From contig JACRIX010000103.1 in the NCBI GenBank assembly GCA_016215645.1, positions 1 through 64,000 on the forward strand: 64,000 nucleotides of DNA. The letters are read 5' to 3'. Origin of the DNA: Rhodocyclales bacterium. Lineage in GTDB: Bacteria > Pseudomonadota > Gammaproteobacteria > Burkholderiales > Rhodocyclaceae. Positions 93 to 63,106 of the stretch are shown piece by piece (within the stretch, counting starts at the first letter, position 1; every line of letters starts with the position of its first letter). The translations under genes were made by a program, and so were the position numbers. The notes beneath the pieces were generated by a model. It was not told the DNA's origin. It saw only the letters and a list, made by a program, of their open reading frames with translations, and made no database searches.

Positions 93-1703
93 CTAAAGGC
101 GGGCAACGCCAAAGGTATTGGGGCGCAGGGTTCGCGCCTCGCTCTCGGCGCAGACGTCGAGGCAAAGGCCGAGGATGCGGCGCGTGTCGCGCGGGTCGAT
201 GATGCCGTCGTCCCACAGGCGGGCGGTGCCGAACAGCGCCGTGGATTCGGCCTCCAGCCGGCGGCGCAGGCCTTCGCTCATCGCCGCCAGCGCCGCTTCG
301 TTGGCCGGCTGGCCGGCGCGTTCCAGCTTGGCGCGGCCGACGATCTCCATGACCTTGGCCGCCTGCGCCGCACCCATCACGGCGGTGCGCGCCGAGGGCC
401 AGGCGAAGATGAAACGCGGATCGAAGCCGCGCCCGCACATGCCGTAGTTGCCGGCGCCAAACGACCCGCCGAGCACCACGGTGAGCTTGGGCACGCGGGC
501 GTTGGCCACGGCCTGGATCATCTTCGAGCCGTGCTTGATCGCGCCCTCGCGTTCCGCCGCCGCGCCGACCATGTAGCCGGTGGTGTTCTGCAGGAAGACC
601 AGCGGCGTGCCGCTCTGGTCGCACAGCTGGATGAACTGCGCGGCCTTGGTTGACCCCTTGGGCTGGATCGGGCCGTTGTTGCCGAGGATGCCGACCGCAT
701 GGCCGTGGAGGCGGGCATGGCCGCAGATCGTGTCGGGGGCGTAGCCGGCCTTGAACTCGAGGAAATCGGACGCATCGACCAGGCGGGCGATGACTTCGCG
801 CACGTCGTAGGGCTCGCGTTCGTCGGCTGGGACGAGGCCGAGGAGTTCTTCAGTCGGGAAGCGCGGATCCTGAAAAGTCGGCGCTGGCGGCACGGCGTTC
901 CAGTTGAGTTTGTCCATCACCTCGCGCGCCGTGGCGATGGCGTGGGCGTCGTTCTCGCAGAGGTATTCGCCCAGACCCGTGACCGAGGCGTGGGTTTCGG
1001 CGCCGCCCAGGGTTTCCTCGTCGCTGTCCTCGCCGATCGCGGCTTTCACCAGCGGCGGGCCGGCGAGATAGATGCTGGAGCGGCCGCGCACCAGGATCAC
1101 GTAGTCCGACAGCCCCGGCAGGTAGGCGCCGCCGGCGGTCGAGGCGCCATGCACCACGGCGATCTGCGGGATGCCGGCTGCCGAGAGCCGCGCCTGGTTG
1201 GCGAAACTGCGCCCGCCCTCGATGAAGATGTCCGCCTGGTAAAGCAGGTTGGCGCCGCCGCTCTCGACCAGGTAGATCAGCGGCAGGCGGTTGTCGCGCG
1301 CCATCTCCTGGGCGCGCAGGCTCTTTCGCAGGCCCATCGGCGGGATGGTGCCGCCCTTGATCGCGCTGTCGCTGGCCAGCACCACGCAGCGCTTGCCGGC
1401 GACCGTGCCGATGCCGATGATGGAACCGCCGCCCTGCACTGCATCCTTGCCGTCGTCGTCGTGCATGCCGAGGCCTGCGAGCGTGCAGAACTCGATGAAG
1501 TCGCTGCCGCGGTCGATCAGGCGCGCCACGCGCTCACGTGGCAGCAACTGGCCGCGCTTTTCGAACTTGTCGCGCTTGGAGGCCGATTCCTCGCGCACCT
1601 TCTGTTCCATGGTGCGTACCTCCGCCAGGCGCTCGGCCATGCGCGCGGCATTGGCGGCGAAGGCGGCCGAGGCGGTGTCGATCAGCGTGTCGAGGACCGG
1701 CAT
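93..1703 (-). CDS. Acyl-CoA carboxylase, carboxyltransferase (beta) subunit, methylcrotonyl/geranyl-CoA type
   Basis: This 536-residue protein has the two crotonase-like halves of biotin-dependent carboxyltransferases. The N-terminal half has the oxyanion motif TAGGAYLPGLSD near residue 190 and the C-terminal half has GGSFGAGNYGM near 411. It would move carboxyl from carboxybiotin to the gamma carbon of a branched enoyl-CoA; the biotin subunit is not in the window. Its ATG overlaps the SDR stop by one base (TGATG), so the genes are translationally coupled. The order SDR, carboxyltransferase, acyl-CoA dehydrogenase matches atuB-atuC-atuD of acyclic terpene (citronellol) degradation better than the leucine liu operon, but methylcrotonyl-CoA carboxylase remains possible. 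Residues ~270-277 carry one copy of the dispersed repeat (AVPPAPTF). Confidence 0.85.
   Translation of the reverse strand: MPVLDTLIDTASAAFAANAARMAERLAEVRTMEQKVREESASKRDKFEKRGQLLPRERVARLIDRGSDFIEFCTLAGLGMHDDDGKDAVQGGGSIIGIGTVAGKRCVVLASDSAIKGGTIPPMGLRKSLRAQEMARDNRLPLIYLVESGGANLLYQADIFIEGGRSFANQARLSAAGIPQIAVVHGASTAGGAYLPGLSDYVILVRGRSSIYLAGPPLVKAAIGEDSDEETLGGAETHASVTGLGEYLCENDAHAIATAREVMDKLNWNAVPPAPTFQDPRFPTEELLGLVPADEREPYDVREVIARLVDASDFLEFKAGYAPDTICGHARLHGHAVGILGNNGPIQPKGSTKAAQFIQLCDQSGTPLVFLQNTTGYMVGAAAEREGAIKHGSKMIQAVANARVPKLTVVLGGSFGAGNYGMCGRGFDPRFIFAWPSARTAVMGAAQAAKVMEIVGRAKLERAGQPANEAALAAMSEGLRRRLEAESTALFGTARLWDDGIIDPRDTRRILGLCLDVCAESEARTLRPNTFGVARL
874..897 (-). repeat. Dispersed short repeat inside the carboxyltransferase gene
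   Basis: On the minus strand GCCGTGCCGCCAGCGCCGAC followed by TTTTC. Read as A-V-P-P-A-P-T-F. Confidence 0.6.
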
Positions 1704-2605
1704 CAGTCCTCCTTCAGCACGTCGGGCGTGACGCTGCGATGGAAGCCGTCGAAAGCTGCCGAGCGGCTGTGGTCGGCGATCGGGAACAGCGGGGTGTCGA
1801 GCGGCGCGCCGCCGTCGATGGCCAGCGTGACGCCGGTGATGAAAGCCGCGCCGGGCGAGAGCAGGAAGCAGATCGCGGCGCTGACTTCGGACTCGGTGCC
1901 GAGGCGGCGCAGGGGTACGTGGCGCTTGAGCTTGGGGATCATCTCGCGCACCGGGCCCTTGTAGGTGTCCATGCCCGACGAGGCGATCCAGCCCGGGGCG
2001 ACGGCATTCACGCGCACGCCGCTGGCCGCCCATTCGACGGCGGCGGTCTTGGTCAGGTTGGCCATGCCGGCGCGCGCGGCGCCCGAGTGGCCCATGCCGG
2101 GCATGCCGTTCCACATGTCGGCGGTCATGTTGACGATGGCGCCGCCGTGGGCCTGCATCGACTGCAGGTAGAGCTCGCGCATCATCAGGAAGCCGCCGGT
2201 CAGGTTGTTGGCGATCACGGTTTCGAAGCCCTTCTTGCCGATGGCCATCAACGGCGCGGGGAACTGCCCGCCGGCGTTATTGACCAAACCATGGATGCGC
2301 GAGTGCCGTGCGACGACGGCCTTCACAGCCGCCTTGACCGCGTCTTCGTCGCGGATGTCGAGGACGGCGACCTCGGCGCGGCCGCCGTCCTGCACGATTT
2401 CGGCGGCCACCGTGCGCAGCTTTTCCTCGGTGCGGCCGCTGAGGATGACGGTGGCGCCTAACGACGCCAGTTCATGGGCGACGCAGCGGCCGATGCCGCT
2501 GCCGCCGCCGGTGACCCAATGCACTTCGCCGGAGAACAGGCCGGGGCGCAGCACGCTCGCGTAGCGGGAAAACGGGGCGTTTTCGGGAGGCTGGGAATGG
2601 GTCAT
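1703..2605 (-). CDS. SDR-family oxidoreductase, 2,4-dienoyl-CoA reductase/AtuB-like
   Basis: This is a 300-residue short-chain dehydrogenase. A TGGGSGIG dinucleotide-binding loop lies near residue 33 and NNAG near 107. The usual YxxxK site is replaced by HSGAARAG, a pattern resembling 2,4-dienoyl-CoA-reductase-like SDRs, which lack the catalytic Tyr in this place; here the Lys position is Arg. It is the first gene of the minus-strand catabolic operon. AAGGAGA sits before its ATG, and a strong promoter with an internal palindrome lies about 35-60 nt upstream. The neighbours suggest reduction or oxidation of an acyl-CoA intermediate. The substrate is not decided by sequence. Confidence 0.8.
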   Translation of the reverse strand: MTHSQPPENAPFSRYASVLRPGLFSGEVHWVTGGGSGIGRCVAHELASLGATVILSGRTEEKLRTVAAEIVQDGGRAEVAVLDIRDEDAVKAAVKAVVARHSRIHGLVNNAGGQFPAPLMAIGKKGFETVIANNLTGGFLMMRELYLQSMQAHGGAIVNMTADMWNGMPGMGHSGAARAGMANLTKTAAVEWAASGVRVNAVAPGWIASSGMDTYKGPVREMIPKLKRHVPLRRLGTESEVSAAICFLLSPGAAFITGVTLAIDGGAPLDTPLFPIADHSRSAAFDGFHRSVTPDVLKED

Positions 2606-2637
2606 GCGCGGGTCTCCTTGCCGGCGTCGACCAAGCC

Positions 2638-2666
2638 ATGCTACCGAGTGCTTACGTTAACGTCAA
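2638..2666 (-). promoter_or_regulatory. Promoter of the SDR-carboxyltransferase-dehydrogenase operon
   Basis: On the minus strand TTGACG (2661-2666) and TAGCAT (2638-2643) are separated by 17 bp. The MerR-type palindrome overlaps the -35 box and spacer. Confidence 0.6.
2652..2666. promoter_or_regulatory. Candidate MerR-family operator
   Basis: The sequence TTACGTTAACGTCAA contains a perfect 10-bp palindrome, ACGTTAACGT (2654-2663). It lies between a MerR-family gene and its divergent target operon, inside the target promoter, where MerR-type activators bind. ACGT-containing palindromes are typical of LiuR/AtuR-type sites; the assignment to this regulator is inferred from position. Confidence 0.55.
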
Positions 2667-2693
2667 CAACCTGCCTTATAAGGAATATTTGTC

Positions 2694-2722
2694 TTGAAAG
2701 CGGCATGCCGGCTTGCTAGCAT
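2694..2722 (+). promoter_or_regulatory. Promoter of the MerR gene, apparently leaderless transcript
   Basis: TTGAAA (2694-2699) and TAGCAT (2717-2722) are exactly 17 bp apart. The start codon ATG is at 2729, so transcription would begin at or next to the start codon. No Shine-Dalgarno sequence precedes it. Confidence 0.55.
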
Positions 2723-2728
2723 GGCGCC

Positions 2729-3187
2729 ATGAACCCATCCCGCAGGCAACCCGTTCACGCCGCGACATCCTCGTCCGGGGACGAACTTTACGGAATTACC
2801 GAGCTGGCCGCTGAGTACGGCATCTCGCTGCGCACGATCCGCTTCTACGAGGACAAGGGCCTGCTGGCGCCACGCCGCATCAACGGCGGCCGCGCCTACA
2901 CGCGGCGCGACCGGGTGCGGCTGGGCCTGATCCTGCGCGGCAAGGCGGTGGGCATGTCGCTGGCCGAGATCGAGCACATCCTCTCGCTCTACGGCGAGCA
3001 CGGCGAGGGACACGCACGACAGCTCGACTACCTGATCGGGCGCATCGACGCGGCGATGGCCGAGCTCGATCAACGCCGTCGCCACATCGAGACCATGGTG
3101 GCGGAACTGGACAAGGTTCGCGGCGAATTGAAGCGCGAGCGGGCGGCCCGGGCCCGTGCTGCGAAGAAGCGCGCAGGGGCTACCTGA
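2729..3187 (+). CDS. MerR-family transcriptional regulator (LiuR-like)
   Basis: This 152-residue protein has a ~20-residue disordered leader and then a MerR winged helix: YGITELAAEYGIS, LRTIRFYEDKGLL and the wing GGRAYTRRD. An effector-poor dimerization coiled coil follows (residues ~85-140), ending in a Lys/Arg/Ala-rich tail. MerR regulators of this short type control branched-chain acyl-CoA catabolism (LiuR group), which fits the divergent acyl-CoA operon. It probably activates that operon from the palindrome at 2652-2666. The first residues are weakly conserved, but the winged helix starts at residue 21, so the start cannot be far downstream. Confidence 0.85.
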   Translation: MNPSRRQPVHAATSSSGDELYGITELAAEYGISLRTIRFYEDKGLLAPRRINGGRAYTRRDRVRLGLILRGKAVGMSLAEIEHILSLYGEHGEGHARQLDYLIGRIDAAMAELDQRRRHIETMVAELDKVRGELKRERAARARAAKKRAGAT

Positions 3188-3272
3188 CGCCGCCGCGGTC
3201 GAATTCCGGCCGCTCCGATTCGCATGTCCGAAAACGGCGGGTCGCGTGCCGGGGCAGGGCTACACTGCGCCC

Positions 3273-4760: not shown

Positions 4761-4761
4761 G

Positions 4762-5244: not shown

Positions 5245-5257
5245 GCGCGCGCCTTCC

Positions 5258-5947: not shown

Positions 5948-6090
5948 GGCGAACTCCCTGAAAAGTATGGGCCGATTCTACCGGTGGCCCCGTCGCCTGG
6001 ATTCAGGATTTGTGATGACAGGCATAAGCGCCAATCGGGAAGTGACCCAAAATCGCCGTGCCGTGAGCGCCGACTCTTGCTAAAGGCTCA
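5948..6090. other. Intergenic region with a variant copy of the dispersed repeat
   Basis: This 143-bp gap between the prepilin gene and rpe holds no ORF of note. At 6054-6078 it contains CGCCGTGCCGTGAGCGCCGA, which shares over 20 bases with a site at 52579-52602 and resembles the dispersed repeat. Promoter elements for rpe are not obvious. Confidence 0.5.
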
Positions 6091-14013: not shown

Positions 14014-15717
14014 CTACATGCGCTCGGTCAGGTCGATGACACGGCCGACTTCCTCGATCGAGGTCGATCCGTCGACGACGCGCCGCAGCCCGTCATCGGC
14101 CAGGGTGCGGAATCCCTTCGATAGCGCCGCGGTACGGATCTCGCGCAAGGGAGCGCGGCGTCCGATGAGGTCATCGAGATCGTGGTCGAGACGCAGCATC
14201 TCCATGATTGCGATACGGCCCCGGTAGCCCTGATATTCGCAATGGTCGCAGCCGGCCGCGCGATAGATGATCGGCGCCGGCTGGCCGCTGGCAACGCCGA
14301 TCAGCTTGCATTCGTGCGCTTCGGCCGGGTAGGGCTTGCGGCAATGGGTGCACAGGCGCCGCACCAGACGCTGGGCGACGATGCCGATGATGTTGCCGGC
14401 CATGATGTCGGGCAGCACACCGATATCGAGCAACCTCGGAACCGCGCCCAGTGCCGAATTGGTGTGCAGCGTCGAATACACCTGGTGACCCGTCATGGCG
14501 GCGCGGAAGGCCATTTCCGCCGTATCCGCATCGCGGATTTCGCCGACCAGGATGATGTCGGGATCCTGCCGCATCATCGAGCGAATGCCGTTGGCAAAGT
14601 CGAGTTTCGCGGACTCGGCCACCGAGGTTTGGCGGATCATGGCCATTGGATACTCGACCGGATCCTCCAGGGTCATGATGTTCACGCCCTCTTCGTTGAT
14701 GTGGTTGAGTACCGAGTAGAGCGTGGTTGTCTTGCCGCTGCCGGTCGGGCCGGTAACCAGGATGATGCCTTCGGGGCGAGCCACCATGAGCTTCATCAGG
14801 CTCATCTGCTGTTCGTCGAGACCGAGTTTGTCGAGCGGGACGATGCCCTTTTGGCGGTCGAGGATGCGCAGCACGATGTTCTCGCCGTGGATCGTGGGCT
14901 GAGAGGCGACGCGGAAGTCAACCGCGCGACCGCTGATGTTGATCGAGATGCGACCATCCTGCGGGGCACGGGTTTCGGCGATGTTCATGCCGCTGATCAC
15001 CTTCATGCGCACCGCCATCGCTGCCCAGTAGGTTTTGTGCAGCGCGCGGATTTGTCGCAGGATGCCGTCGATGCGGTAACGGATGCGCAGGAAGCTCGCT
15101 TCGGGTTCGAAATGGACGTCGGAAGCGTCATGTTTTACCGCATCGGTAAGCAGGGCATCGACCAGGCGCACTACCGGCTGGCTGTACTCATCGAGCGAGG
15201 CAGCAAGACTGCGGTAATCGATTTCGCCGGTTTCGATCTCGTGCAGGATGCCGTCGATCGACAGCTCGTGGCCGTAGTACTGGTCGATGGCGCGGGCGAT
15301 TTCGGATTCGCCGGCGATCAGGGTTTCGATCAGCAGGTCGGGGTGGATCAGCGTGCGCAGCTTGTCGAGGGCGACAATGTCGTTCGGGTCGGCGATCGCG
15401 ATCTTGAGGCGCTGGTCGCGCCTGGAATAGCTGAGGGCAAGGAACAGGTGGCGTTTGGCCAGGTCACGCGGAACCAGGCGCAAGGCATCCGGGTCGATGA
15501 TCGACTTGGAGAGGTCTACAGCCCTGTGTCCGAGGGACTCGCCCAATGCGTCGCGCAGTGTGGCTTCCGAGACGAACCCCAGTGCCACCAGCAGCTTGCC
15601 GACCGGCTGGTTGGACTTCATCTGTTCCAGCAGGGCAATGCGCAACTGATCTTCGCTGATCACGCCTTGCGTGATGAGGATCTGGCCTATCGGTCGGCGG
15701 GGGCTGGGCGAGTTCAT
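14014..15717 (-). CDS. mshE: MSHA-type pilus assembly ATPase, MshE (GspE family) with MshEN domain
   Basis: This 567-residue secretion ATPase has Walker A GPTGSGKTT (residues ~322-330), Walker B DPDIILVGEIRD, and a C-terminal zinc site made of CTHC and CDHC. The first ~60 residues hold two tandem copies of the MshEN pattern, PIGQILITQGVISEDQLRIA then PVGKLLVALGFVSEATLRDA, the fold known to bind c-di-GMP in MshE. It should power pilus extension under c-di-GMP control. ATG 15717 was preferred because the MshEN motif follows at once; an in-frame ATG at 15738 is possible. Confidence 0.93.
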   Translation of the reverse strand: MNSPSPRRPIGQILITQGVISEDQLRIALLEQMKSNQPVGKLLVALGFVSEATLRDALGESLGHRAVDLSKSIIDPDALRLVPRDLAKRHLFLALSYSRRDQRLKIAIADPNDIVALDKLRTLIHPDLLIETLIAGESEIARAIDQYYGHELSIDGILHEIETGEIDYRSLAASLDEYSQPVVRLVDALLTDAVKHDASDVHFEPEASFLRIRYRIDGILRQIRALHKTYWAAMAVRMKVISGMNIAETRAPQDGRISINISGRAVDFRVASQPTIHGENIVLRILDRQKGIVPLDKLGLDEQQMSLMKLMVARPEGIILVTGPTGSGKTTTLYSVLNHINEEGVNIMTLEDPVEYPMAMIRQTSVAESAKLDFANGIRSMMRQDPDIILVGEIRDADTAEMAFRAAMTGHQVYSTLHTNSALGAVPRLLDIGVLPDIMAGNIIGIVAQRLVRRLCTHCRKPYPAEAHECKLIGVASGQPAPIIYRAAGCDHCEYQGYRGRIAIMEMLRLDHDLDDLIGRRAPLREIRTAALSKGFRTLADDGLRRVVDGSTSIEEVGRVIDLTERM

Positions 15718-15772
15718 ACGAACGTGATTATCCCGCATCTGCCAGTGAGGGCAAGCCCCGGAAAGGGCACTG

Positions 15773-17188
15773 TCAGGGTTGCAGCGTTTTTAGTCGTGCG
15801 GCGACCTGGTCCCGGTCGAAACTGGCCGGGCGGCTGGCGGCTGCGGCGATGGCCTGGGCATAGTACTGCGCGGCAAGCTTGTTCTGCCGCAAATGCTCAA
15901 GGCTGATGGCCAGGTTGTAGAGAATGTCGGGATTGTCCGGCTCGGCATTGAAGGCACGGAAGTACGCCGGCTGCGCGTCGTTCCAGCGGCCCATGCGGGC
16001 ATAGAGGTTCCCCAGCGAGAAATGCGGAGCCGCCAGTTCCGGCTGCGCCGCGGCAAGTGATTTCAAGCGGCTTTCAGTCATCCCGGGATCCACCTGTCCG
16101 CGTTGATTCAACAGCGCGGATATCGCCACCGAATCCTGCGGATCGGACTCGATGATTTGACGATACAAGGCGTCTGCCTGATCAAGGCGCCCCTGCCGCA
16201 GGGCGATTGCGGCAAGCCCATGAAGGACGTCGGTATTGCGCGGATCATTCTTGCGTGCCCGCTCGTACTCGATTTGAGCCAGCGCCAGTTCGCCACGGTT
16301 GAAGGCCTCAAAGCCACGATTCAATGCCGGGTCAATCCTGAGCGGCTGACGGGTCACGCGAATCCCGCTATCCTCGTCGGGAATCTCGGCATTCCGCGCC
16401 GGTGTGCGGCGTTGGCGCGCCGGTGGTCTGGCAACTGGTTCATCGTCATCTTCATTTGTCGCAGCAGTCCTGGGACGCGGTGCACCGGCAGTGGGGCCGT
16501 TGGCTGCAAGGCCGGGAGCAGCAGTTGACGCAGCTGGAGGGGGAAGAGTCGGCGCTGGCGTTACGGCGGCCAACACGGGTGCTGCCGGTGGCGTGGCCGG
16601 CGGCATCGGTTTCGCGATCATGCTGTTCTTGGGCTGCAGTTGCCACCAGAAATATCCACCGATGCCGGTGACGGACAAAACTGTCAGTACGCCGATAGCA
16701 ACGGCGAATGCTTTGCGGCTTTCCTGCTTTTCCGGTTGCTTTGCGGCGAAGAGGTTTTGCGCGGCAGCCTTCACCTGCGCATCGTCAACCTCCGGGACTG
16801 GGCGTCGAGGGCTTTCTGTTGGTGCCGCTGCTGCCGTTGGTAGCGGGCGCGCGACTGCTTCCACCGGCATTGGCGCAGGTGGAGGTGGCGCGATGGGCTC
16901 CATTTTTACCGCGGCGATCGAAGGCGGAGGTACCTGGCGAGCGGCCGCAGCGGCCTCTTCGAGAAACTGTGCATCCAGTTCTTCGAGATGAGATGCCAGG
17001 GACATCATGGGTTCGGTGCGACCAGCGCCCTGATCGATTTCCCGGGGCGGATCTGCGGAATCAGCCGGTAACGGCTCCAGGGCAAGGCTACCGAAGTTAT
17101 CGATCTCCGGGTTGTTGTCGCCACCGCCCTCGGCTCCCTGGCGCTTGGCCAGTTCCGCCTTCTTCAGGGCGTCCATTAGGAGACTCAT
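15773..17188 (-). CDS. mshN: TPR-repeat MSHA biogenesis protein, MshN-like
   Basis: This is a 471-residue bitopic protein: a cytoplasmic N-terminus, a membrane helix near residue 165 (AVAIGVLTVLSVTGIGGYFWW), a long Pro/Ala-rich linker and at least four C-terminal TPR repeats (FNRGELALAQIEYERA, LRQGRLDQADALYRQI, YARMGRWNDAQPAYFRA). The linker contains AAVTPAPTL, one copy of the dispersed repeat. Its ATG overlaps the mshL stop (ATGA). In MSHA loci MshN sits beside MshL/MshM and is thought to help secretin assembly. Confidence 0.8.
   Translation of the reverse strand: MSLLMDALKKAELAKRQGAEGGGDNNPEIDNFGSLALEPLPADSADPPREIDQGAGRTEPMMSLASHLEELDAQFLEEAAAAARQVPPPSIAAVKMEPIAPPPPAPMPVEAVARPLPTAAAAPTESPRRPVPEVDDAQVKAAAQNLFAAKQPEKQESRKAFAVAIGVLTVLSVTGIGGYFWWQLQPKNSMIAKPMPPATPPAAPVLAAVTPAPTLPPPAASTAAPGLAANGPTAGAPRPRTAATNEDDDEPVARPPARQRRTPARNAEIPDEDSGIRVTRQPLRIDPALNRGFEAFNRGELALAQIEYERARKNDPRNTDVLHGLAAIALRQGRLDQADALYRQIIESDPQDSVAISALLNQRGQVDPGMTESRLKSLAAAQPELAAPHFSLGNLYARMGRWNDAQPAYFRAFNAEPDNPDILYNLAISLEHLRQNKLAAQYYAQAIAAAASRPASFDRDQVAARLKTLQP
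16545..16568 (-). repeat. Dispersed short repeat inside mshN
   Basis: On the minus strand GCCGTAACGCCAGCGCCGAC followed by TCTTC. Read as A-V-T-P-A-P-T-L. Confidence 0.6.
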
Positions 17189-19062
17189 TGCGGCCCTGCT
17201 CCGGCTTGAGCTGGCTGCGTTGCAGCTTTGGTGGCGGGATCCTTGAAATAAGTCCTACTTGGCAACAAGTCGCGGAACGACTGGTAATCCGTAGTTATGC
17301 TGGGATCGCGGATGATCGTCGGCTTGAGAAAAATGACCAGTTCAGTCTTGGACATGGTGTCGCTGCGATTGCGGAAGAAATTTCCGACTCCCGGAAGGTC
17401 TCCCAGACCGGGAACCTGGCTGGAAGTATTGCTGATCTTGTCTTCCATCAATCCACCCATCACGGCGACTTCGCCATCCGACAGGCGCAACATCGATTCC
17501 ATTTCGCGGGTCTGGATGACAGGAACATTATTCACCGCACCAAGGTTGGGGGTCGGATCCTGCACATCGCCTGTTTTGCTCGATATCGTTGGGCGAACAT
17601 TGAGAAGGATGCTGCCGTTCTCGCTAATCTGTGGCGTGACGCTCATGACAAGGCCGACCGAAATGGACTTGGCGGTGGCCGTGAAATTATTTGTGGTTCC
17701 GGTTGTGGTGGTGGTCGAGTCGTTCTTGACCTCGAAGTAGACCAGATTGTTAACCACTTTGAGCATCGCCGTCTGGTTGTTGAGGACGCTCAACTTTGGA
17801 CTGGAAAGGACTTTGACCTTGCCGAAGGTTTCGAGCAGGCTGAGCGTTGACACCAGGCCAAGACCGGGGGCTACGTAATTAAGGAGGAAGGCAAAGGTTC
17901 CGGGGGAGGCACCAAAGGTTGGCGCCGTAGTCGACGTCACAAAAGAGCCAGAGGTTGTCAAAACCGGATTGGTAGCAGTGGTCGGGTTCTGTGCCAGCGA
18001 AAAACCTGCCTGAGGATTCCCCGGCCGCAGGCTACGCAGGCTTTGCCAGTTGATGCCTTGCTGGTAGGCGTCATTCAGGCTGACTTCCGCTATCGTTGCC
18101 TCGATTACGACCTGGCGCCGCGCATTGATCAGCACGAGATCAAGGTACTCCTGCACCTTCTCGTGTTGCCGAGCGCTTGCGCGCACGACGATGACGCCGG
18201 CCTCGGGATTGACGATGATCGAGGCTGCTTCGCGGAAGGTTGTGCGTTTGACCACCGTGGTTCCCTGCTGCTGCACAGTCGCCGGATTCGGGCTGCCGGA
18301 AATGCCGCCCGCCTGGGCCGAACTGCGTCCTGCAGTTTGACTGCTTTGCGCACCTGTTCCTGTCGTGGCCTGCTGGTCGGAGCGCTCGATTACGGTTTCG
18401 CTGGATCCTTCGGGAAGGATCTTGTCGCTTTCCCGCAGGATATCCTTGAGGTTTTTTTCGATGGAGAGCCAGAAGTTGTTTTGTGCGGAACTCTTTACCG
18501 ACGTCGCGGAATTGTTGCCGCTTCCCGATGACCCTCCTGCCGCGCTGGTACTGGTTGAGGCGATTTGCGTATTTATCGAGACCGAGCCGGTCAGCTCGCG
18601 CGACATGTTGACGTAATCAACCTTGTAGTTGCGCAGGAATGGCGTATCCGGCATGACCAGCAGATTTGGCCCATCGAGTTCCCAGCGCATGTCAACTTGC
18701 CTGGAAATGCGCGTGAGAATCTGTTGCAGGGTTTGGTCGATGGCATTGATGGTTACGATGCCATTGATGCCGGGATGCACATCGACATTGAGTTTGGCGT
18801 CTCGGGCCAGTGCAAACAGCAGATCCTGAACCGGGATATTGCGCACGGATACGGAATACGACTCGGTCTTGGCGGCGGCACGCGGCCGAGGCAACAGCGG
18901 TGTCGCGGCGACCGGAGTCGGGATATCCGTATTTACGGCTATCTGCGCTTCGGTGTTGATGTGCCCGGCCGACGAGGGCTGATGCTGCATGCCACCGCAG
19001 GCCGTCAGGGCCAGACAGGTAACAAGGCCTACCGGGAGTGGCGATATCACGAAAGTGCGCAA
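17185..19062 (-). CDS. mshL: MSHA-type outer-membrane secretin, MshL
   Basis: This is a 625-residue lipoprotein secretin. The signal ends in the lipobox LTAC. The N-terminal domain has SVSVRNIPVQDLLFALARDA and DVHPGIN (secretin/TonB short N-terminal and N1 domains). A Ser/Gly/Gln-rich insertion spans ~170-270, and the C-terminal beta-barrel has SVTPQISENGSILLNVRP and VMGGLMEDKISNTSSQVPGLGDLPGVGNFF. It forms the pilus exit channel. The start codon appears to be TTG, preceded by GGGGATTCG; no ATG lies closer to the signal peptide. Confidence 0.92.
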   Translation of the reverse strand: MRTFVISPLPVGLVTCLALTACGGMQHQPSSAGHINTEAQIAVNTDIPTPVAATPLLPRPRAAAKTESYSVSVRNIPVQDLLFALARDAKLNVDVHPGINGIVTINAIDQTLQQILTRISRQVDMRWELDGPNLLVMPDTPFLRNYKVDYVNMSRELTGSVSINTQIASTSTSAAGGSSGSGNNSATSVKSSAQNNFWLSIEKNLKDILRESDKILPEGSSETVIERSDQQATTGTGAQSSQTAGRSSAQAGGISGSPNPATVQQQGTTVVKRTTFREAASIIVNPEAGVIVVRASARQHEKVQEYLDLVLINARRQVVIEATIAEVSLNDAYQQGINWQSLRSLRPGNPQAGFSLAQNPTTATNPVLTTSGSFVTSTTAPTFGASPGTFAFLLNYVAPGLGLVSTLSLLETFGKVKVLSSPKLSVLNNQTAMLKVVNNLVYFEVKNDSTTTTTGTTNNFTATAKSISVGLVMSVTPQISENGSILLNVRPTISSKTGDVQDPTPNLGAVNNVPVIQTREMESMLRLSDGEVAVMGGLMEDKISNTSSQVPGLGDLPGVGNFFRNRSDTMSKTELVIFLKPTIIRDPSITTDYQSFRDLLPSRTYFKDPATKAATQPAQAGAGPQ

Positions 19063-27965: not shown

Positions 27966-29469
<1,504 letters not shown>

Positions 29470-30115: not shown

Positions 30116-31404
30116 TTCGCCGTCTCTCCAGCGCCGACTCCGGGTTTGCGGCGACGCTCGACGCGTTGCTGCATTTCGACAACTCGACCGATGAGGCCAT
30201 CGAGCGCACGGTTGCGGAAATCCTCGTCCGCGTCCGTGCCGAAGGCGATCCGGCCGTCCTCGATTACACGCGCCGCTTCGACAAGCTGGACATCGGCAGC
30301 ATGGCCGAACTCGAGCTGCCGCGTGCCGAGATGCGTCACGCGCTCGATCGTTTGCCACCAGCCCAGCGCAAGGCGCTAGAGGCCGCCGCCCAGCGCGTCA
30401 CCAGCTATCACGAGCGACAAAAATCGGAGTCCTGGAGCTTCGTTGAGCCCGATGGTACGCGCCTCGGACAGAAGGTGACGGCGCTGGATCGGGTAGGCCT
30501 CTATGTTCCCGGCGGCAAGGCGGCCTATCCCAGCTCGGTGCTGATGAATGCCCTTCCGGCCAAAGTTGCCGGCGTCGGCGAACTCATCATGGTAGTGCCG
30601 ACCCCGCGCGGCGAGAGGAATGCACTCGTACTTGCGGCGGCCTGCCTTTCTGGCGTCGATCGCGTGTTCACCATCGGGGGGGCGCAGGCTGTCGCGGCGC
30701 TGGCCTACGGTACGCAGACCGTGCCACAGGTGGACAAGATCGTCGGCCCCGGCAATGCTTATGTCGCCGCCGCCAAACGCCGCGTCTTCGGCACGGTCGG
30801 CATCGACATGGTGGCCGGTCCGTCCGAGGTGCTCATCATCGCCGATGCCACCGCCAATCCGGACTGGGTGGCGATCGACCTCTTCGCCCAGGCGGAGCAC
30901 GACGAACTGGCCCAATCGATCCTGCTTTGCCCCGATGCCGGCTTCCTGGCCAAGGTGGCGGCCAGCATCGAGCGCCTGTTGCCGACCATGCCGCGCCGCG
31001 AAGTCATTGCCGCCTCGCTCAAGGGCCGCGGCGCCCTGATCCAGGTTGCCAACTTCGACGAAGCCTGCGAGATTGCCAACCGCATCGCGCCGGAACACCT
31101 TGAGCTTTCCGTGGCCGATCCGGCGCCGCTGGTGGAAAAGATCCGCCATGCCGGCGCGATCTTCATCGGGCACTATGCCTCCGAATCCCTTGGCGACTAC
31201 TGTGCCGGACCCAACCACGTGTTGCCGACCTCGCGCAGTGCGCGTTTTTCGTCACCGCTGGGCGTCTATGATTTCCAGAAGCGCTCCAGCATCATCGAGG
31301 TCTCGGCGGCCGGTGCCAGGACCCTGGGTCCGATTGCGGCCACCCTTGCGCACGGTGAAGGCCTGACGGCTCACGCCAATGCGGCGGAATTTCGGCTGAA
31401 GTAG
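30112..31404 (+). CDS. hisD: Histidinol dehydrogenase
   Basis: This 430-residue enzyme has [35 protein letters not shown] and the zinc-site stretch [12 protein letters not shown], then [14 protein letters not shown]. It makes the last two oxidation steps of histidine synthesis. After its stop the coding strand switches: hisC faces it. Confidence 0.96.
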
Positions 31405-31411
31405 TCTGGTA

Positions 31412-31436
31412 CGCCGTGGCGCCGGCGCCGACTTTC
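31412..31436 (+). repeat. Dispersed short repeat, intergenic copy between hisD and inverted hisC
   Basis: ACGCCGTGGCGCCGGCGCCG then ACTTT matches the window-wide consensus. It lies 8 bp after the hisD stop and 28 bp before the hisC stop, at one edge of the inverted segment, and contains the palindrome GGCGCCGGCGCC. Confidence 0.6.
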
Positions 31437-36822: not shown

Positions 36823-37215
36823 ATGTTTGACGTTGGCCTTACCGAACTGATGGTCATCGCCGTGGTGGCCCTGGTTGTCATCGGCCCTGAACGCCTGCCC
36901 AAGGTGGCCCGCACGGCGGGACTGCTGCTCGGACGGCTGCAGCGCTATGTCGGCGATGTTAAGGCGGACATCAATCGCGAGATGCAACTCGACGAACTCA
37001 AAAAACTGCAGCAGCAGGTGAGTACCGAGGTCAGCAGTGTCGAGGCGTCGGTAAGCCACGAACTCCGTGAAATCGAGGGGGACGTGAACAAAGCGATCGC
37101 GTCGGAAGTCGAGGTCGCCGTACCACCAGCGCCGACTTCCGAGGTTGTTGCTGCGGACGCGGCTCCTGCACCGAGCCTGGCCGCTGCCGAACAGGCTACT
37201 GAAAACAAGACTTGA
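36823..37215 (+). CDS. tatB: Sec-independent translocase subunit TatB
   Basis: This 130-residue protein has MFDVGLTELMVIAVVALVVIGPERLPKV, the TatB signature with Glu8 and the GPERLP hinge, then an amphipathic helix and a variable C-terminus. The tail contains AVPPAPTS, encoded by a copy of the dispersed repeat at 37116-37140. It ends one base into tatC (TGATG). Confidence 0.94.
   Translation: MFDVGLTELMVIAVVALVVIGPERLPKVARTAGLLLGRLQRYVGDVKADINREMQLDELKKLQQQVSTEVSSVEASVSHELREIEGDVNKAIASEVEVAVPPAPTSEVVAADAAPAPSLAAAEQATENKT
37116..37140 (+). repeat. Dispersed short repeat inside tatB
   Basis: CGCCGTACCACCAGCGCCGA followed by CTTCC. Read as A-V-P-P-A-P-T-S in the variable tail. Confidence 0.6.
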
Positions 37216-47431: not shown

Positions 47432-48202
47432 ATGAAGGCGATGGCTGGCAAGGCGTTGGGACGGGATGAACTACGCGCTTTTCTCGACAGGGAGCTTGAT
47501 GCAGCGCAGTTTCGCGATTATTGCCCAAACGGTCTGCAAGTGGAAGGCTGTGAACAGGTCCGACGCGTGGTCTGCGGCGTGACGGCCAGCCAGGCATTGA
47601 TCGAGTCCGCCATCGAGCGCCAGGCCGATGCGTTGCTGGTGCATCACGGCTGGTTCTGGAAGTCGGAGGATGGACGTGTCACCGGATATCGCAAACAGCG
47701 CATGGCGCGCCTGCTGGCGCATGACATCAGCCTGTTTGCCTATCATTTGCCGCTCGACGCGCATCCCGTGCTGGGGAACAACGCCCAGCTCGCGGCACGC
47801 CTGGGCTGGACTGTCGAAGGACGCTTTGCGGAGCAGGAAATCGGCTTTTTCGGCGTACCGCCAGCGCCGACTTCCGTTGCCGAACTGTCCCACCATGTCG
47901 CCCTCACGTTGGGGCGCGAGCCCCAGCTGATCGGAGATCCGGATCGAATCGTGAAGCGTGTTGCCTGGTGCAGCGGCGGAGCGCAGGATTACTTTGAAGA
48001 TGCATTGACGACGGGTGCCGACCTGTTTCTGTCGGGCGAGATTTCGGAACAGACGGTACATATGGCGCGGGAAACCGGAATGGCGTTTCTGGCAGCCGGA
48101 CACCACGCGACCGAACGCTATGGCGTCATGGCGTTGGGCCGGCACCTGGCAGCCCAATTCGACATTGAATGCGAATTCATCGACCTTCACAACCCGGTCT
48201 GA
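47432..48202 (+). CDS. Nif3-like dinuclear metal center protein (YbgI family)
   Basis: This 256-residue protein has the Nif3 metal ligands in LLVHHGWFW, AYHLPLDAHP and the C-terminal GHHATERYGV, plus CSGGAQDYFEDAL. The family binds two metals; its role is not settled. Residues ~140-147 are GVPPAPTS, from a copy of the dispersed repeat (47851-47875). ATG 47432 follows GGCGGG; ATG 47441 is also possible. Confidence 0.9.
   Translation: MKAMAGKALGRDELRAFLDRELDAAQFRDYCPNGLQVEGCEQVRRVVCGVTASQALIESAIERQADALLVHHGWFWKSEDGRVTGYRKQRMARLLAHDISLFAYHLPLDAHPVLGNNAQLAARLGWTVEGRFAEQEIGFFGVPPAPTSVAELSHHVALTLGREPQLIGDPDRIVKRVAWCSGGAQDYFEDALTTGADLFLSGEISEQTVHMARETGMAFLAAGHHATERYGVMALGRHLAAQFDIECEFIDLHNPV
47851..47875 (+). 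repeat. Dispersed short repeat inside the Nif3-like gene
   Basis: CGGCGTACCGCCAGCGCCGA followed by CTTCC. Read as G-V-P-P-A-P-T-S. Confidence 0.6.
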
Positions 48203-51108: not shown

Positions 51109-52767
51109 ATGCTGAAGACCTATACCTATCCGAAATACGCTTACCGCACGCCGCCCGAGATCGCCAGCGGCAAGGTCCTGAAGCTGCCGGTCGTCGTCGT
51201 CGGCGCCGGCCCCGTTGGCCTGGGCATGGCGCTGGATCTGGATTTGCAGGGCATCCCCGTGGTCTTGCTGGACGAGGACGACACGGTGTCGATCGGCTCG
51301 CGCGGTGTTTGCTACGCCAAGCGCGCGCTGGAAATCCTCGATCGCTACGGTGTCGGCGATGCGGTCTGCGCCAAGGGCGTGTCCTGGAACGTCGGCCGCA
51401 CCTTCTTCCGCGAAAGCGAGGTGTACAACTTCAATCTGGTTCCCGAACCCGATCATCATCGGCCGGGGATGGTGAACCTCCAGCAGTACTACCTCGAGGA
51501 ATACCTGGTGACACAGGCCGCCTCGCGCCCGGGTATCGACCTGCGCTGGACGAACAAGGTGGTTTCGGTGGCGCAGGCCGCCTCGGGCGTGGCGCTGAAG
51601 GTGGAAACGCCTGACGGCATGTACACCGTCGAGGCCGACTGGCTGATTGCCGCCGATGGTGCGCGCAGCCCGATCCGTCGCATGCTCGGGCTGGAAGTCG
51701 AAGGCAAGATCTTCATGGATCGCTTCCTTATCGCCGATGTGGTGATGAAGGCGGATTTCCCGGCGGAGCGCTGGTTCTGGTTCGATCCGCCCTTCCATCC
51801 CAACCAGTCGGTACTGCTGCACAAGCAGACCGACAGTGTGTTCCGCATCGATTTCCAGCTCGGCTGGGATGCTGATCCCGAGGAGGAGAAAAAGCCGGAG
51901 AACGTGCTGCCGCGGATCAGGGCCATGCTGGGAGACGAACGCGAGTTCGAACTGGAATGGGTCAGCGTCTATACCTTCCAATGCCGCCGCATGGGCCGTT
52001 TCAACCACGGTCGCGTGCTCTTCGTCGGCGACGCGGCGCACCAGGTATCGCCCTTCGGTGCGCGCGGCGCCAACTCCGGCCTGCAGGATGCCGACAACCT
52101 GGGCTGGAAGCTCAAACTGGTAGTGGACGGCAAGGCTCCCGCCAGCCTGCTCGACAGTTATAGCGAAGAGCGTGTCTACGCCGCCGACGAGAACCTGATG
52201 AACTCGACGCGCTCGACGGATTTCATCACACCCAAGAGTCGTGCCAGCCGAACTTTCCGCAATGCTGCCTTGGGTTTGGCCAAGGACCACGCCTTCGGCC
52301 GAGCCCTGGTCAATTCCGGGCGGCTGTCGGTACCGTCTTACCTGGTCGCGTCCAGCCTCAACACACCGGACGAGGACAGCTTTGCCGGGCGCATGCTGCC
52401 GGGAGCGCCTATGGACGACGCGCCGATCGAGCAGGACGGTATACCCGGCTGGCTGCTGCAAAGCACCGGCAATCGCTTCCAAATGATGGTCTTCGTCGAC
52501 GATCCCGCGACCGTGGATGTCGCGGCGCTGTCGGCCCTGGACTGTGACGGCATCCGCGTCGAACCCTTGATCATCTCGCGCCGTGCCGTGAGCGCCGACT
52601 CCCTGGCCTGCATTTACGATGTACGCGGCGTGACCTACCAGCGCTACGACGCCCGGCCCGGCACCGCCTACCTGATTCGTCCCGACCAGCACGTCGCGGC
52701 GCGCTGGCGCGGCGTCGACGCTGCGAAACTGCGCGCCGCCGTGGCTCGTGCCTGCGGCCGGTCCTGA
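51109..52767 (+). CDS. Class A FAD-dependent aromatic monooxygenase
   Basis: This 552-residue flavoprotein has FAD motif VVGAGPVGLGMALDL, the DG motif AADGARSPIRRMLGL and the GD motif VLFVGDAAHQVSPFGARGANSGLQDADN. A thioredoxin-like C-terminal domain follows, as in MhpA/phenol-hydroxylase types. It should hydroxylate a phenolic substrate with NAD(P)H and O2. It starts 12 nt after the MBL gene. Substrate cannot be read from sequence. Near residue 492 RRAVSADS is encoded by a variant of the dispersed repeat. Confidence 0.88.
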   Translation: MLKTYTYPKYAYRTPPEIASGKVLKLPVVVVGAGPVGLGMALDLDLQGIPVVLLDEDDTVSIGSRGVCYAKRALEILDRYGVGDAVCAKGVSWNVGRTFFRESEVYNFNLVPEPDHHRPGMVNLQQYYLEEYLVTQAASRPGIDLRWTNKVVSVAQAASGVALKVETPDGMYTVEADWLIAADGARSPIRRMLGLEVEGKIFMDRFLIADVVMKADFPAERWFWFDPPFHPNQSVLLHKQTDSVFRIDFQLGWDADPEEEKKPENVLPRIRAMLGDEREFELEWVSVYTFQCRRMGRFNHGRVLFVGDAAHQVSPFGARGANSGLQDADNLGWKLKLVVDGKAPASLLDSYSEERVYAADENLMNSTRSTDFITPKSRASRTFRNAALGLAKDHAFGRALVNSGRLSVPSYLVASSLNTPDEDSFAGRMLPGAPMDDAPIEQDGIPGWLLQSTGNRFQMMVFVDDPATVDVAALSALDCDGIRVEPLIISRRAVSADSLACIYDVRGVTYQRYDARPGTAYLIRPDQHVAARWRGVDAAKLRAAVARACGRS

Positions 52768-53003: not shown

Positions 53004-53005
53004 AC

Positions 53006-53830: not shown

Positions 53831-53833
53831 GAT

Positions 53834-56923: not shown

Positions 56924-56924
56924 T

Positions 56925-57488
56925 TCAGTTGTTCTTCAGCCGCCCGGCGAAGACCTTGCGCAGCTTGGCGGCCTTGGGCGCCACGACGGCCTGGCAATAG
57001 CCCTGGTGCGGGTTGTTGGCGTAGTAGTTTTGGTGGTAATCCTCGGCGCGCCAGAAAGTCGGCGCTGGCGACACGGCGGTGACGATGGGGTTCGGCCAGG
57101 TATCGGAGGCGCCGAGTTCAGCGATCAACTCCCGGGCAATCCGCTCCTGCTCCGCGTCGTGGGTGAAGATCACCGAGCGGTACTGGTTGCCGATGTCGTT
57201 GCCCTGGCGGTTCAAGGTGGTTGGGTCGTGCACGGCGAAAAAGGCCAGCAGGAGCGTGCGGTAGTCGATCACCGCCGGATCGAAGCGCACCTCGACCACC
57301 TCGGCGTGACCGGTGCGACCGGTACAGATGCTGTGGTAATCGGGGTTCTCCGTGGCGCCGCCGGCATAGCCGGAGACCACGGATTCGACCCCCTGCAACT
57401 GGACGAAGGCGGCTTCCAGGCACCAGAAGCAGCCTCCGCCGAGTGTGGCAACCGAGGTGCCCAATGAGGTCGCGATCTCGATGTTCAT
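56925..57488 (-). CDS. msrA: Peptide-methionine (S)-S-oxide reductase
   Basis: This 187-residue protein has the active site GGGCFWCLE, SGYAGG, YHSICTGRTGHAEVVEVRFDP and RSVIFTHD, all MsrA landmarks. In place of the usual stretch before AEDYHQ it reads AVSPAPTFWRAEDYHQ, encoded by a copy of the dispersed repeat (57055-57079). It overlaps the methyltransferase stop by four bases and is the last gene of the paa operon. Confidence 0.95.
   Translation of the reverse strand: MNIEIATSLGTSVATLGGGCFWCLEAAFVQLQGVESVVSGYAGGATENPDYHSICTGRTGHAEVVEVRFDPAVIDYRTLLLAFFAVHDPTTLNRQGNDIGNQYRSVIFTHDAEQERIARELIAELGASDTWPNPIVTAVSPAPTFWRAEDYHQNYYANNPHQGYCQAVVAPKAAKLRKVFAGRLKNN
57055..57079 (-). repeat. Dispersed short repeat inside msrA
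   Basis: On the minus strand GCCGTGTCGCCAGCGCCGAC followed by TTTC. Read as A-V-S-P-A-P-T-F. Confidence 0.6.
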
Positions 57489-58234: not shown

Positions 58235-59435
<1,201 letters not shown>

Positions 59436-59439
<4 letters not shown>

Positions 59440-59879
59440 GATTCGGTGCTTTCGTCGAAGAAATGTCCCTTGATGCGGGTGGAACGGCCGCGAAACACGG
59501 CGATCAGCTTGCCGTCCTGGTTCGTGACCTCGATGTCGTAGATGCCGGAGCGCCCGCCCTGGTGGCGGGCGCGTCCGACGGCCGTCAGTGTATCGCCGAG
59601 ATGGGCCGGGGCGATGAAGTTGATGTCGACGCCGGCGGCCACGGTGTAGTGGTTGAAGCTGTTGCAGGCATAGGCGAAGTTGGTGTCGGCCAGGGCGAAG
59701 AGGAAGCCGCCGTGGGCGATGCCGTGCCCGTTCACCATGTCCTGCCGGACTTTCATCTCGGCCACCGCGCCACCCGGCGTGGTCTCGCGGATCACGATGC
59801 CGAGGCCCTGGGCGGCGTGGTCGTTGGGCCACATCGTGGCCGTGCAGCGTTCGGCGACTTGTTGCGGAGTCAGCGCCAT
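59436..59879 (-). CDS. paaI: Hydroxyphenylacetyl-CoA thioesterase
   Basis: This 147-residue hot-dog protein has GHGIAHGGFLFALADTNFAYACN (PaaI motif, catalytic Asp in LADTNFA) and AGVDINFIAPAHLGDTLTA. It clears dead-end CoA thioesters during phenylacetate breakdown. It starts one base after the paaG stop and overlaps paaJ by four. Confidence 0.93.
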
Positions 59880-59880
59880 G

Positions 59881-60669
59881 TCACTTCCCCGTGAAATTGG
59901 CGGGACGCTTTGCCATGAAGGCGGCCACACCCTCGCGGTAGTCGGGACCGAAGCCGAGTTCGCGCTGGTAGTCGCGCTCGAGGTCGAGCTGCTGCTCCAG
60001 GGTGTTGCCGCCGCTGGCGTAGATTGCCTGCTTGGTGCGGGCCAGGCCCTTGGTCGGCGCCGTGCTGAAGTGCAGCGCAAGCTTCTCGGCTTCGGTCATC
60101 AGCTGGTCGTCGTCGAGGCACTTCCAGATCAGGCCCCAGTTCTCCGCCTGCTCGGCGGAAAGCTTGTCGCCGAGCATGGCCAGGCCCATGGCGCGGGCAT
60201 TGCCGACCAGGCGCGGCAACGCCCAGGTGCCGCCGGCATCGGGTACCAGACCGAGCTTGCAGAAGGCCTGGATGAAGGAGGCCGAGCGGGCGGCGAGGAC
60301 GATGTCGCAGGCCAGGGCGATGCTGGCGCCGGCACCGGCGGCGACGCCATTCACGGCGCAGATGACGGGCATTTCCAGCGCGTGCAGGCTGAGGATCAGC
60401 GGCCGGTAATAAGTTTCTATCGTGTAGCCAAGATCGACGGGCGCGGCATCGGCCGAGACATTGCGGTCGGCCAGGTCCTGCCCGGCGCAGAAGCCGCGCC
60501 CCGCTCCGGTCAGCAGCAGCACGCGGGCGCCGCCGTCGCGGGTACGGGTGAGTGCGTCGCGTAACTCCATGTGCATGTCGACGTTGAAGCTGTTGAGTCG
60601 GTCGGGTCGGTGCAGCGTGATGCGGGCAATGCCGGCATCGAGCGAAAAAAGAATGTGCTGGTAGCTCAT
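59881..60669 (-). CDS. paaG: Ring-1,2-epoxyphenylacetyl-CoA isomerase, enoyl-CoA hydratase family
   Basis: This 262-residue crotonase has GRGFCAGQDLADRN, AVNGVAAGAGASIALACD and FIQAFCKLGLVPDAGGTWALPRLVG, close to PaaG. It converts the ring epoxide to the oxepin-CoA. It is the first gene of paaG-paaI-paaJ-methyltransferase-msrA. The epoxidase paaABCDE, paaZ and ligase paaK are not in the window. Confidence 0.92.
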   Translation of the reverse strand: MSYQHILFSLDAGIARITLHRPDRLNSFNVDMHMELRDALTRTRDGGARVLLLTGAGRGFCAGQDLADRNVSADAAPVDLGYTIETYYRPLILSLHALEMPVICAVNGVAAGAGASIALACDIVLAARSASFIQAFCKLGLVPDAGGTWALPRLVGNARAMGLAMLGDKLSAEQAENWGLIWKCLDDDQLMTEAEKLALHFSTAPTKGLARTKQAIYASGGNTLEQQLDLERDYQRELGFGPDYREGVAAFMAKRPANFTGK

Positions 60670-60784
60670 GGGCGGGTCGGGCGGTCCTGGTCGGTTGCGT
60701 TGCACACCTTCGGTGGGTCGATAACGACACGGGAAGGCGGATCAGTTTAGAATGAAAATGTATCATTTCCTACGGTTCTGACGC
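60670..60784. promoter_or_regulatory. Divergent control region between paaG and paaY
   Basis: This 115-bp gap becomes AT-rich near paaY. It holds the inverted repeat AATGA-N7-TCATT (60751-60767), flanked by TAGAAT (60748-60753) and TATCAT (60761-60766) on the plus strand. It is a likely shared operator/promoter. Confidence 0.45.
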
Positions 60785-61390
60785 ATGAAAGTCTTTGCCA
60801 TCGACGGCATCGTGCCGGTTGTCGACCCAGCGGCGTACGTCCATCCCTCCGCGGTGCTGATCGGCGATGTGCACATCGGGCCGCGCGCCTACATCGGCCC
60901 CTGCGCCAGCCTGCGCGGCGATTTTGGTCGGCTGTTCATCGGTCCCGGCGCGAATGTGCAGGACTGCTGCGTGATGCATGGTTTTCCCGGCAGCGACACA
61001 ATCGTCGAAGAGGACGGCCACATCGGCCACGGCGCCATCCTGCACGGCTGCATCGTGCGCCGCAATGGCATGGTCGGAATGAATGCAGTGGTCATGGATA
61101 AGGCGGTGGTAGGCGAATCGGCGATCGTCGCGGCACAGAGTTTCGTCAAGGCAGGCCTGGAGATCCCGCCGCGCATGCTGGCCGCGGGCGTGCCGGCCAA
61201 GGTGATGCGCGAGCTGACCGAACTGGAAATGAGCTGGAAGATCGAGGGCACCGGCGTTTACCATGACCTTGTCCGCCGCTGCCATGGCACGCTGCGGGAA
61301 GTCGACGCCCTGACGGCGGCCGAACCCGACCGCAAGCGCCTGCAACTGCCGGACCTGAAGACCTTGAAGGAAGCGCGGCGCGGCGGCTGA
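60785..61390 (+). CDS. paaY: PaaY-type gamma-carbonic-anhydrase-like hexapeptide protein
   Basis: This 201-residue left-handed beta-helix has hexapeptide repeats ([20 protein letters not shown]), His ligands in [27 protein letters not shown] and an alpha-helical tail. The long tail and the divergent paa operon identify PaaY, a thioesterase that rescues CoA from inhibitory ring products. Its 3' end faces glpK. Confidence 0.88.
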
Positions 61391-61402
61391 GGACCAGCCC
61401 GG

Positions 61403-61417
61403 GAGTCGGCGCTGGTA

Positions 61418-61425
<8 letters not shown>
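61403..61425 (-). repeat. Dispersed short repeat, intergenic copy between paaY and glpK
   Basis: Read on the minus strand, GTAGTACCAGCGCCGACTCC matches the consensus. It fills most of the 27-bp gap between the convergent paaY and glpK stops. Confidence 0.6.
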
Positions 61426-62920
<1,495 letters not shown>

Positions 62921-63016
62921 GTTGGCTTCCCCGGGTCGAGATGGATTCATCGGGACAGTAGCCGGAGCGTGGTGGTCCGTCAATTCGGCCGCGGGGCAGC
63001 ACTCACCAGCAGCTTT

Positions 63017-63046
63017 TTGTAAGCTTCGATTAAGTCTCCTTATGTT
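63017..63046 (+). promoter_or_regulatory. Candidate promoter of sucC
   Basis: TTGTAA (63017-63022) and TATGTT (63041-63046) are 18 bp apart in an AT-rich patch, leaving a leader of about 170 nt before sucC. Confidence 0.4.
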
Positions 63047-63088
63047 AGTATTCCGCGCCGCAACAATGGTGCCGGGACGAGTTTCCAA

Positions 63089-63106
63089 ACGTCGGCGCTG
63101 GCAATC
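63089..63106 (-). repeat. Dispersed short repeat, truncated copy before sucC
   Basis: On the minus strand GATTGCCAGCGCCGACGT keeps the core GCCAGCGCCGAC but not the CGCCGT half. Confidence 0.4.

Follow-up and report, generated by a model that had tools for sequence, protein, structure and literature searches.

The 64,000-nucleotide stretch analysed here (the window: positions 1 to 64,000 of contig JACRIX010000103.1 from the Rhodocyclales bacterium assembly GCA_016215645.1) contains copies of a dispersed bipartite repeat, 22-25 bp in length, which to judge from its sequence and genomic distribution is probably a DNA uptake sequence (DUS). Uptake sequence dialects are described as known only in Neisseriaceae and Pasteurellaceae; on balance we favour the view that a third line of sequence-specific DNA uptake, independent of those two, exists in Sulfuritalea, Rugosibacter and their relatives within a single betaproteobacterial family, where a long two-part tag has split into three or more dialects and there is a natural series of receptor-tag pairs. 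The observations that bear on this are the abundance of the repeat, its balance between strands, its DNA-level footprint, the construction of its dialects on a common scaffold, a difference of dialect at the murA locus, and the absence of sites by divergence more than by clean gaps. A sequence-only reading of the window had proposed, among other possibilities, that the repeat has a DNA function such as uptake, and its abundance, presence on both strands, DNA-level conservation and dialects lend that suggestion indirect support.

Copies were sought with the pattern CGCCGTNNCNCCAGCGCCGACTYY at up to 3 mismatches, with the same pattern read backwards as the control. The window's own assembly (G000; 3.41 Mb, 79.6% complete) holds 587 copies compared to 5 for the control, balanced between the strands (302 forward, 285 reverse), which corresponds to a density of 172 per Mb or one copy per 5.8 kb. 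Within the window there are 44 matches to a 14-base core with 3 or fewer mismatches, compared to 15.3 in shuffled sequence, and none of 100 shuffles reaches 44; the fuller pattern has 11 sites at the same threshold. In 223 kb of G000, the numbers of sites with 0 to 6 mismatches are 20, 9, 10, 2, 4, 14 and 78, and the trough at 3-4 mismatches separates true sites from background. The repeat is real and genome-wide. Its copies in the window are the following:

874..897, minus strand: motif copy, 0 mismatches; sense AVPPAPTF in the carboxyl transferase gene (93-2114, minus)
6054..6077, plus strand: variant copy GTGAGCGCCGACT, 2 mismatches; intergenic, adjoining the ribulose-phosphate epimerase gene
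16545..16568, minus strand: motif copy, 0 mismatches; sense AVTPAPTL in a tetratricopeptide repeat (TPR) protein gene
28408..28431, minus strand: copy, 2 mismatches; antisense in murA (TVGAGDTV), with a version in another dialect (D3, below) at the orthologous place of locus L034
30118..30141, plus strand: copy, 0 mismatches to the search pattern; sense RRLSSADS at the hisD N-terminus
31412..31435, plus strand: copy, 1 mismatch; intergenic, after hisD
37116..37139, plus strand: motif copy, 0 mismatches; sense AVPPAPTS in the tatB tail
47851..47874, plus strand: copy, 1 mismatch; sense GVPPAPTS in the DUF34/NIF3 gene
52579..52602, plus strand: variant copy GTGAGCGCCGACT, 2 mismatches; sense RRAVSADS in the FAD_binding_3 gene (51109-52767, plus)
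57055..57078, minus strand: motif copy, 0 mismatches; sense AVSPAPTF in the msrA-type (PMSR) gene
61402..61425, minus strand: copy, 2 mismatches; intergenic, between convergent called genes
63089..63106, minus strand: right-half-only relic, below threshold; just upstream of the FGGY kinase gene

The places at which the sequence-only reading had located the repeat do contain the sequence it described; its list omitted the copy at 30118, and its entry at 63089-63106, which is the right half only, falls outside the 11. The five host proteins it had named are real by Pfam (Carboxyl_trans, a TPR protein, TatA_B_E, DUF34_NIF3 and PMSR), and the TPR protein is MshN-like by its position among MshE-type and secretin genes. 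Placement relied on a simple gene caller, which assigned at least one window site (52579) to the wrong strand.

A GC-rich string that is repeatedly translated into one peptide could arise from codon usage, from GC content or from a preference for the V-x-P-A-P-T peptide, as the five window copies that encode the same peptide might suggest. Synonymous codons were shuffled within called genes of the 223 kb of G000 (50 shuffles), with intergenic copies left unshuffled. At up to 3 mismatches, 41 matches are observed compared to 12.0 expected (maximum 17), and the roughly 12 that survive shuffling are partly the unshuffled intergenic copies (5 of the 41); exact matches number 20 compared to 1.0 expected (maximum 2). 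The possibility that codon bias alone would produce such counts, which the sequence-only reading had itself raised, thus fails. Copies also occur in four frames and between genes, and Rugosibacter, at 52-53% GC, has the same GC-rich motif. These counts, together with the 587 copies compared to 5 for the reversed control, refute the by-product explanation, and its probability is negligible.

Reading frame and placement were surveyed at 134 sites in 723 kb from 22 genomes, namely 21 of the window's own genus (a Sulfuritalea-like genus, hereafter the own genus) and G037; because many of the surveyed loci are orthologous, the frame counts are not independent. Genes contain 107 of the 134 sites, and the other 27 are intergenic (20%, where called non-coding DNA makes up 8.9%). 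The genic sites are read in the sense direction as AVxPAPT (35) or RRxASAD (21), or lie antisense (26 and 22), and the remaining two frames account for 1 and 2. The claim that the repeat is read in the same frame is correct for the five window proteins, all of which read A/G-V-x-PAPT, but this is only the commonest of the four frames used. Several sites lie where length varies, namely in the murA loop, at the tail of tatB and in part of the carboxyl transferase. The occurrence of the motif on both strands, in coding and intergenic DNA, with no replication polarity among the places listed, is the placement seen for DUS and for uptake signal sequences (USS). Hairpin-like short inserts, TCCCNNNGGGACGCANAGCGC or GCGAAGCGGAATYCCNGGNACGCARAGC, were observed inside or beside the motif in L120, L113, L118 and L057 (murA), L123 (tatB) and L143:16974-17061 (carboxyl transferase); a search of the 22 genome sets gave 3 copies of the GCGAAGCGGAATYCCNGGNACGCARAGC form.

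The genus consensus, derived from 131 own-genus sites selected by the pattern at up to 3 mismatches, is t-CGCCGT-NN-C-R-CC-A-GCGCCGACT-YY-y, in which positions 7 and 8 are degenerate, position 10 is mostly G or A, and positions 23 and 24 are pyrimidines. The informative positions in the genus are 1-6 and 9-22, and those conserved between species are 1-6, 12 and 14-22. Conservation was computed from 120 of 164 ordered between-species comparisons, which overlap and are not independent; the other 44 were dropped for having more than 30 gap columns. Identity is 0.91-0.98 at positions 4-5 and 14-22, 0.85-0.92 at positions 1-3, 6 and 12, and 0.64-0.79 at positions 7, 8, 10, 23 and 24, of which 7, 8 and 10 reach 0.70-0.79; the specified positions pooled reach 0.905, compared to a flank mean of 0.785. 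The conserved footprint is therefore made up of two blocks, CGCCGT and GCGCCGACT, a fixed distance apart, and it is a DNA-level footprint because the sites occupy several reading frames. No palindrome or dyad was seen in the motif on inspection.

Related genera carry different versions of the motif. Dialect D2, GCCGTNNCRNNNNGACTGACTTTT, was traced through counts of 11-mers in 20-kb stretches of sister genera, where GACTGACTTTT emerged in G039; that genome has 142 exact copies (77 plus, 65 minus; control 0), or 46 per Mb counting exact copies only, and their contexts keep the left block, length and tail of the own-genus motif. Dialect D3, CGGCGTNNCRCCAGCACCAACTGG, was seen in L034. In G043 it occurs 593 times with 3 mismatches or fewer (303 and 290 on the two strands; control 0; about 200 per Mb), compared to 12 copies of the own form in that genome. 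Other forms occur as well: three own-genus species, G001, G016 and G028, match the D3 pattern 40-53 times, and most of the G001 copies listed are intermediates with the ending CCAACT, as though standing between D3 and the own dialect; G037 mixes GCGCCGACT and GCACCGACT; copies in G048 mostly start with TGCCG; and G122 has 19 copies, mostly GCGTCGACTTTT. At one locus the dialect differs in place, since murA of L034 has the D3 form, with one mismatch, where most carriers have the own form. The own form, D2, D3 and the intermediates are clade-specific dialects on a common scaffold, which is a property of DUS and USS.

The motif is present in all 31 own-genus genomes of a copy-number survey of 121 genomes, at 84-800 copies, the poorest being G017 (84), G022 (225) and G026 (283). 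The survey also included 42 other genera of the family, with one genome each, and 48 genomes of other families in the order. Only four of the 42 genera have at least 72 copies (G037 833, G067 777, G048 395, G052 72); the other 38 have at most 20 (G070 20, G045 16, G039 15, G043 12, the rest 0-10), and the genomes of other families have 0-8. One of the latter, G083, has four own-form copies at 0-1 mismatches, perhaps in DNA acquired from the clade. Among loci fetched with HisF, the own genus lies near Sulfuritalea sp. (L032, 98% HisF identity), which NCBI classes in Sterolibacteriaceae, and the motif is also found in Rugosibacter (L057, L058) and several metagenome-assembled genomes of Rhodocyclaceae.

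A search for the scaffold GCCGTNNCRNNNNNNNNGACTTTT without mismatch, a pattern that would miss D3 or other tails, gave a match in 57 of 160 family genomes from 68 genera. At least 16 exact copies occur in at least one genome of 9 of the 68 genera (g1, g8, g10, g19, g23, g38, g93, g94 and g112), and the control has 0-1 matches in such genomes. The distribution is uneven within genera: G229 of g10 has 0 scaffold sites compared to 90-162 in three sampled congeners, and G160 of g23 has 2. In a HisF/HisD/HisG tree, the own-form and D3 loci form one clade (support 0.896) together with L035-L038, L043 and L049, six loci that yielded no site, and the D2 loci, placed on HisF alone, fall in another (support 0.991) with L039, L042 and L047, of which L042 holds two D2-like sites. 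Named loci of genera outside both clades have at most one chance-level match. The system may be of ancient origin, with losses, or may have been transferred.

The turnover of sites bears on the proposal, made in the sequence-only reading, that the repeat is a small mobile element like the Rickettsia palindromic elements (RPE), and on the broader rival reading of it as a tiny selfish repeat of RPE, repetitive extragenic palindromic (REP) or miniature inverted-repeat transposable element type that inserts as a 24-bp frame-keeping unit. The motif resembles RPE in being a short repeat within many reading frames, and a unit of 24 bp would preserve the frame; in addition, the window has two copies of a variant subfamily, GTGAGCGCCGACT, whose 27-bp form finds matches at other places in relatives. 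RPE are insertions of greater length and palindromic structure; the present motif differs in showing no palindrome on inspection and in the manner in which it is absent. In 164 ordered comparisons, based on 48 query sites in six own-genus species, the site is kept at up to 3 mismatches in 136. The 28 absences, which stem from 15 query sites at about seven places and include three borderline cases (4 mismatches), comprise 8 without a gap in the site, 15 with 1-5 gap columns and 5 with at least 6, and no clean motif-sized gap with intact flanks was found in the 25 of these 28 alignments inspected. Absent sites in near relatives mostly show 4-12 mismatches and few large gaps; at 31412 the site and its left flank are gone together in G008, and the carboxyl transferase absence in G008 involves the insertion of an unrelated repeat. 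A gene presumed from its position to be hisC has the site in G019, G008 and G002; G000 and G006 lack it, and their alignments show 0-1 gap columns.

The clean insertions that the sequence-only reading had suggested looking for in orthologs are not seen in motif-sized form with intact flanks in those 25 alignments; the one remaining point for insertion is the murA loop, which is 18 bp shorter and siteless in several non-carriers (e.g. L052, L053, L082, L035), and a lengthening of the loop at the origin of the murA site is possible. Degenerate positions 7 and 8, dialects that follow genera, and a different dialect at the same place in murA of L034 also argue against a mobile element, which we regard as improbable. 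The local divergence at absent sites appears comparable to that of new DUS in Neisseria, where, according to a six-genome analysis, many new DUS differ from their orthologs by more than point mutation would explain and probably arose via recombination (PMC2397512).

The motif might instead be the binding site of an intracellular DNA-binding protein that acts in chromosome organisation, segregation or recombination and is unrelated to uptake. KOPS (FtsK-orienting polar sequences), Chi and matS-type motifs are genome-wide recognition sites of this kind, as the present motif putatively is; they are shorter (8-13 bp), and two of them, KOPS and Chi, have strand polarity. Any binding site could have a footprint with sharp bounds and degenerate positions such as the one seen here. 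In G000 the sites tend to keep apart, with 1 of 32 adjacent gaps below 1 kb compared to 6.0 expected (P 0.007). Unlike KOPS and Chi, the motif shows no strand polarity among the places listed: a runs test on 100 of 130 places in G002, which may represent the two strands unevenly, gives P 0.18, and in G039 the sites below 1.3925 Mb are 34 plus and 27 minus, interleaved. An apparent polarity was rejected on this basis, since the places first listed for G039 and G149 were all plus and a fuller listing for G039 gave minus sites in the same stretch. The low counts in 38 of 42 sister genera are also unfavourable to an intracellular binder, and a change of dialect between genera would be unusual for core chromosome proteins. 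Such a binder is a minority explanation, unlikely but with some weight.

If the motif is instead an uptake sequence, then a surface receptor of the natural transformation machinery, perhaps a pilin on a type IV pilus, would recognise the tag on incoming DNA, and tagged fragments would be taken up better and then recombined into the genome. It is proposed that tags would build up because tagged fragments are preferentially taken up and recombined, accumulating in permissive places of genes and in spacers on both strands; as the specificity of the receptor drifts, the tags would follow, which could give rise to different dialects in each genus. Receptor recognition, uptake bias and recombination are the steps that we infer.

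Several results weigh against uptake. The competence genes, for which only comEC was searched, do not track the motif: comEC is found in 30 of 31 own-genus genomes (a partial match in G022, none in G000), in 70 of 76 genomes overall, including most non-carriers, and in 20 of 21 genomes of a second set, and because most motif-free genomes, among them G229, and the motif-poorest own-genus genome G017 all have it, its presence is compatible with uptake but not telling, and its failure to track the motif would equally suit an intracellular binder. No receptor candidate was singled out from the prepilin inventories of six genomes, which were partly read by eye. The small genome G229 (2.4 Mb) has 6 prepilin matches compared to 11 in each of G039 and G149, and it lacks the msh-like cluster, named by eye, that those two have, keeping another set of minor pilins. 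An msh-type pilin cluster was rejected as the receptor locus, since it is missing in G229 but present in motif-poor G017, and no receptor can be named because of this. The sequence of the motif also raises difficulties: positions 9, 11 and 13 are at flank level (identity 0.72-0.79), and the motif exceeds the 9-12 nt of known DUS and USS, which is a norm of length and not a functional requirement.

The spacing of sites provides further points of the same kind. Inverted pairs lying near each other, which are frequent in Haemophilus, are scarcely seen here: the closest adjacent sites in the 723-kb set are 176, 255, 306 and 386 bp apart, and only the 306-bp pair is oppositely oriented. The even spacing of G000 is not shared by G039 (P 0.52, exact sites only), nor is spacing at 1 kb significant in G037 or G067 (P 0.14 each); pooled, 4 of 94 gaps are below 1 kb compared to 19.3 expected, but orthologous loci are mixed in this count. 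The longer murA loop of carriers, compatible with insertion, and the copies in virus-like contigs belong here as well. At least 120 virus-like stretches of IMG/VR (L152-L271) hold exact copies; these 120 loci, selected for holding a site, span 1.10 Mb and contain 62 further sites beyond one each compared to 188 expected at host density, so that their further-site density is about one third of that of the host.

Like the Neisseriaceae DUS, the motif is abundant and short, lies on both strands and in genes and spacers, has clade-specific dialects with a common core, and has sites that are better conserved than their flanks and lie in permissive places (PMC3630211; PMC2397512). It differs in its sequence, although it shares GCCGT with ATGCCGTCTGAA, possibly by chance; in its length and bipartite form (DUS are 10-12 bp); and in its lower density and few close inverted pairs. 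The DUS is paired with ComP, and no ComP-like receptor was identified here among the prepilins of the six genomes. The Pasteurellaceae USS is likewise an abundant motif, with two dialect groups (PMC12616744), of unrelated sequence; the density of G000 is just below the 200-500 per Mb of Apl-USS (PMC12616744). The full-length USS used in an uptake model is about 31 bp, models indicate that tag-biased uptake alone accumulates tags, and in one strain 17% of USS have a neighbour no more than 30 bp away (PMC7811141), compared to 176 bp for the closest pair here. No report of uptake sequences or of this motif for the clade, or of natural transformation in Sulfuritalea, was found among the open-licence PubMed Central papers listed.

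If the proposal is true, self-recognition in transformation is not peculiar to Neisseriaceae and Pasteurellaceae and extends to a third family known mainly from environmental genomes. The co-evolution of tag and receptor would then be testable by comparing genera. Dialects are reported to act as barriers to transformation (PMC3630211). The right tag on donor DNA could then help to transform bacteria that are now without genetics.

Some minor observations remain. Window positions 14014-19062 hold pilus or secretion assembly genes, namely an ATPase with an MshEN domain, the TPR protein and a secretin, which by arrangement are like those of the mannose-sensitive haemagglutinin pilus. When the 20-kb loci were scanned for further dialects, L103 was found to have TGACTCCTGA 7 times, L105 to have the palindrome TTGCCGGCAA at 4 places (8 counting both strands), and L037 to have AGCCCGACCT 8 times, with four of the copies arranged as two inverted hairpin pairs, which is REP-like.

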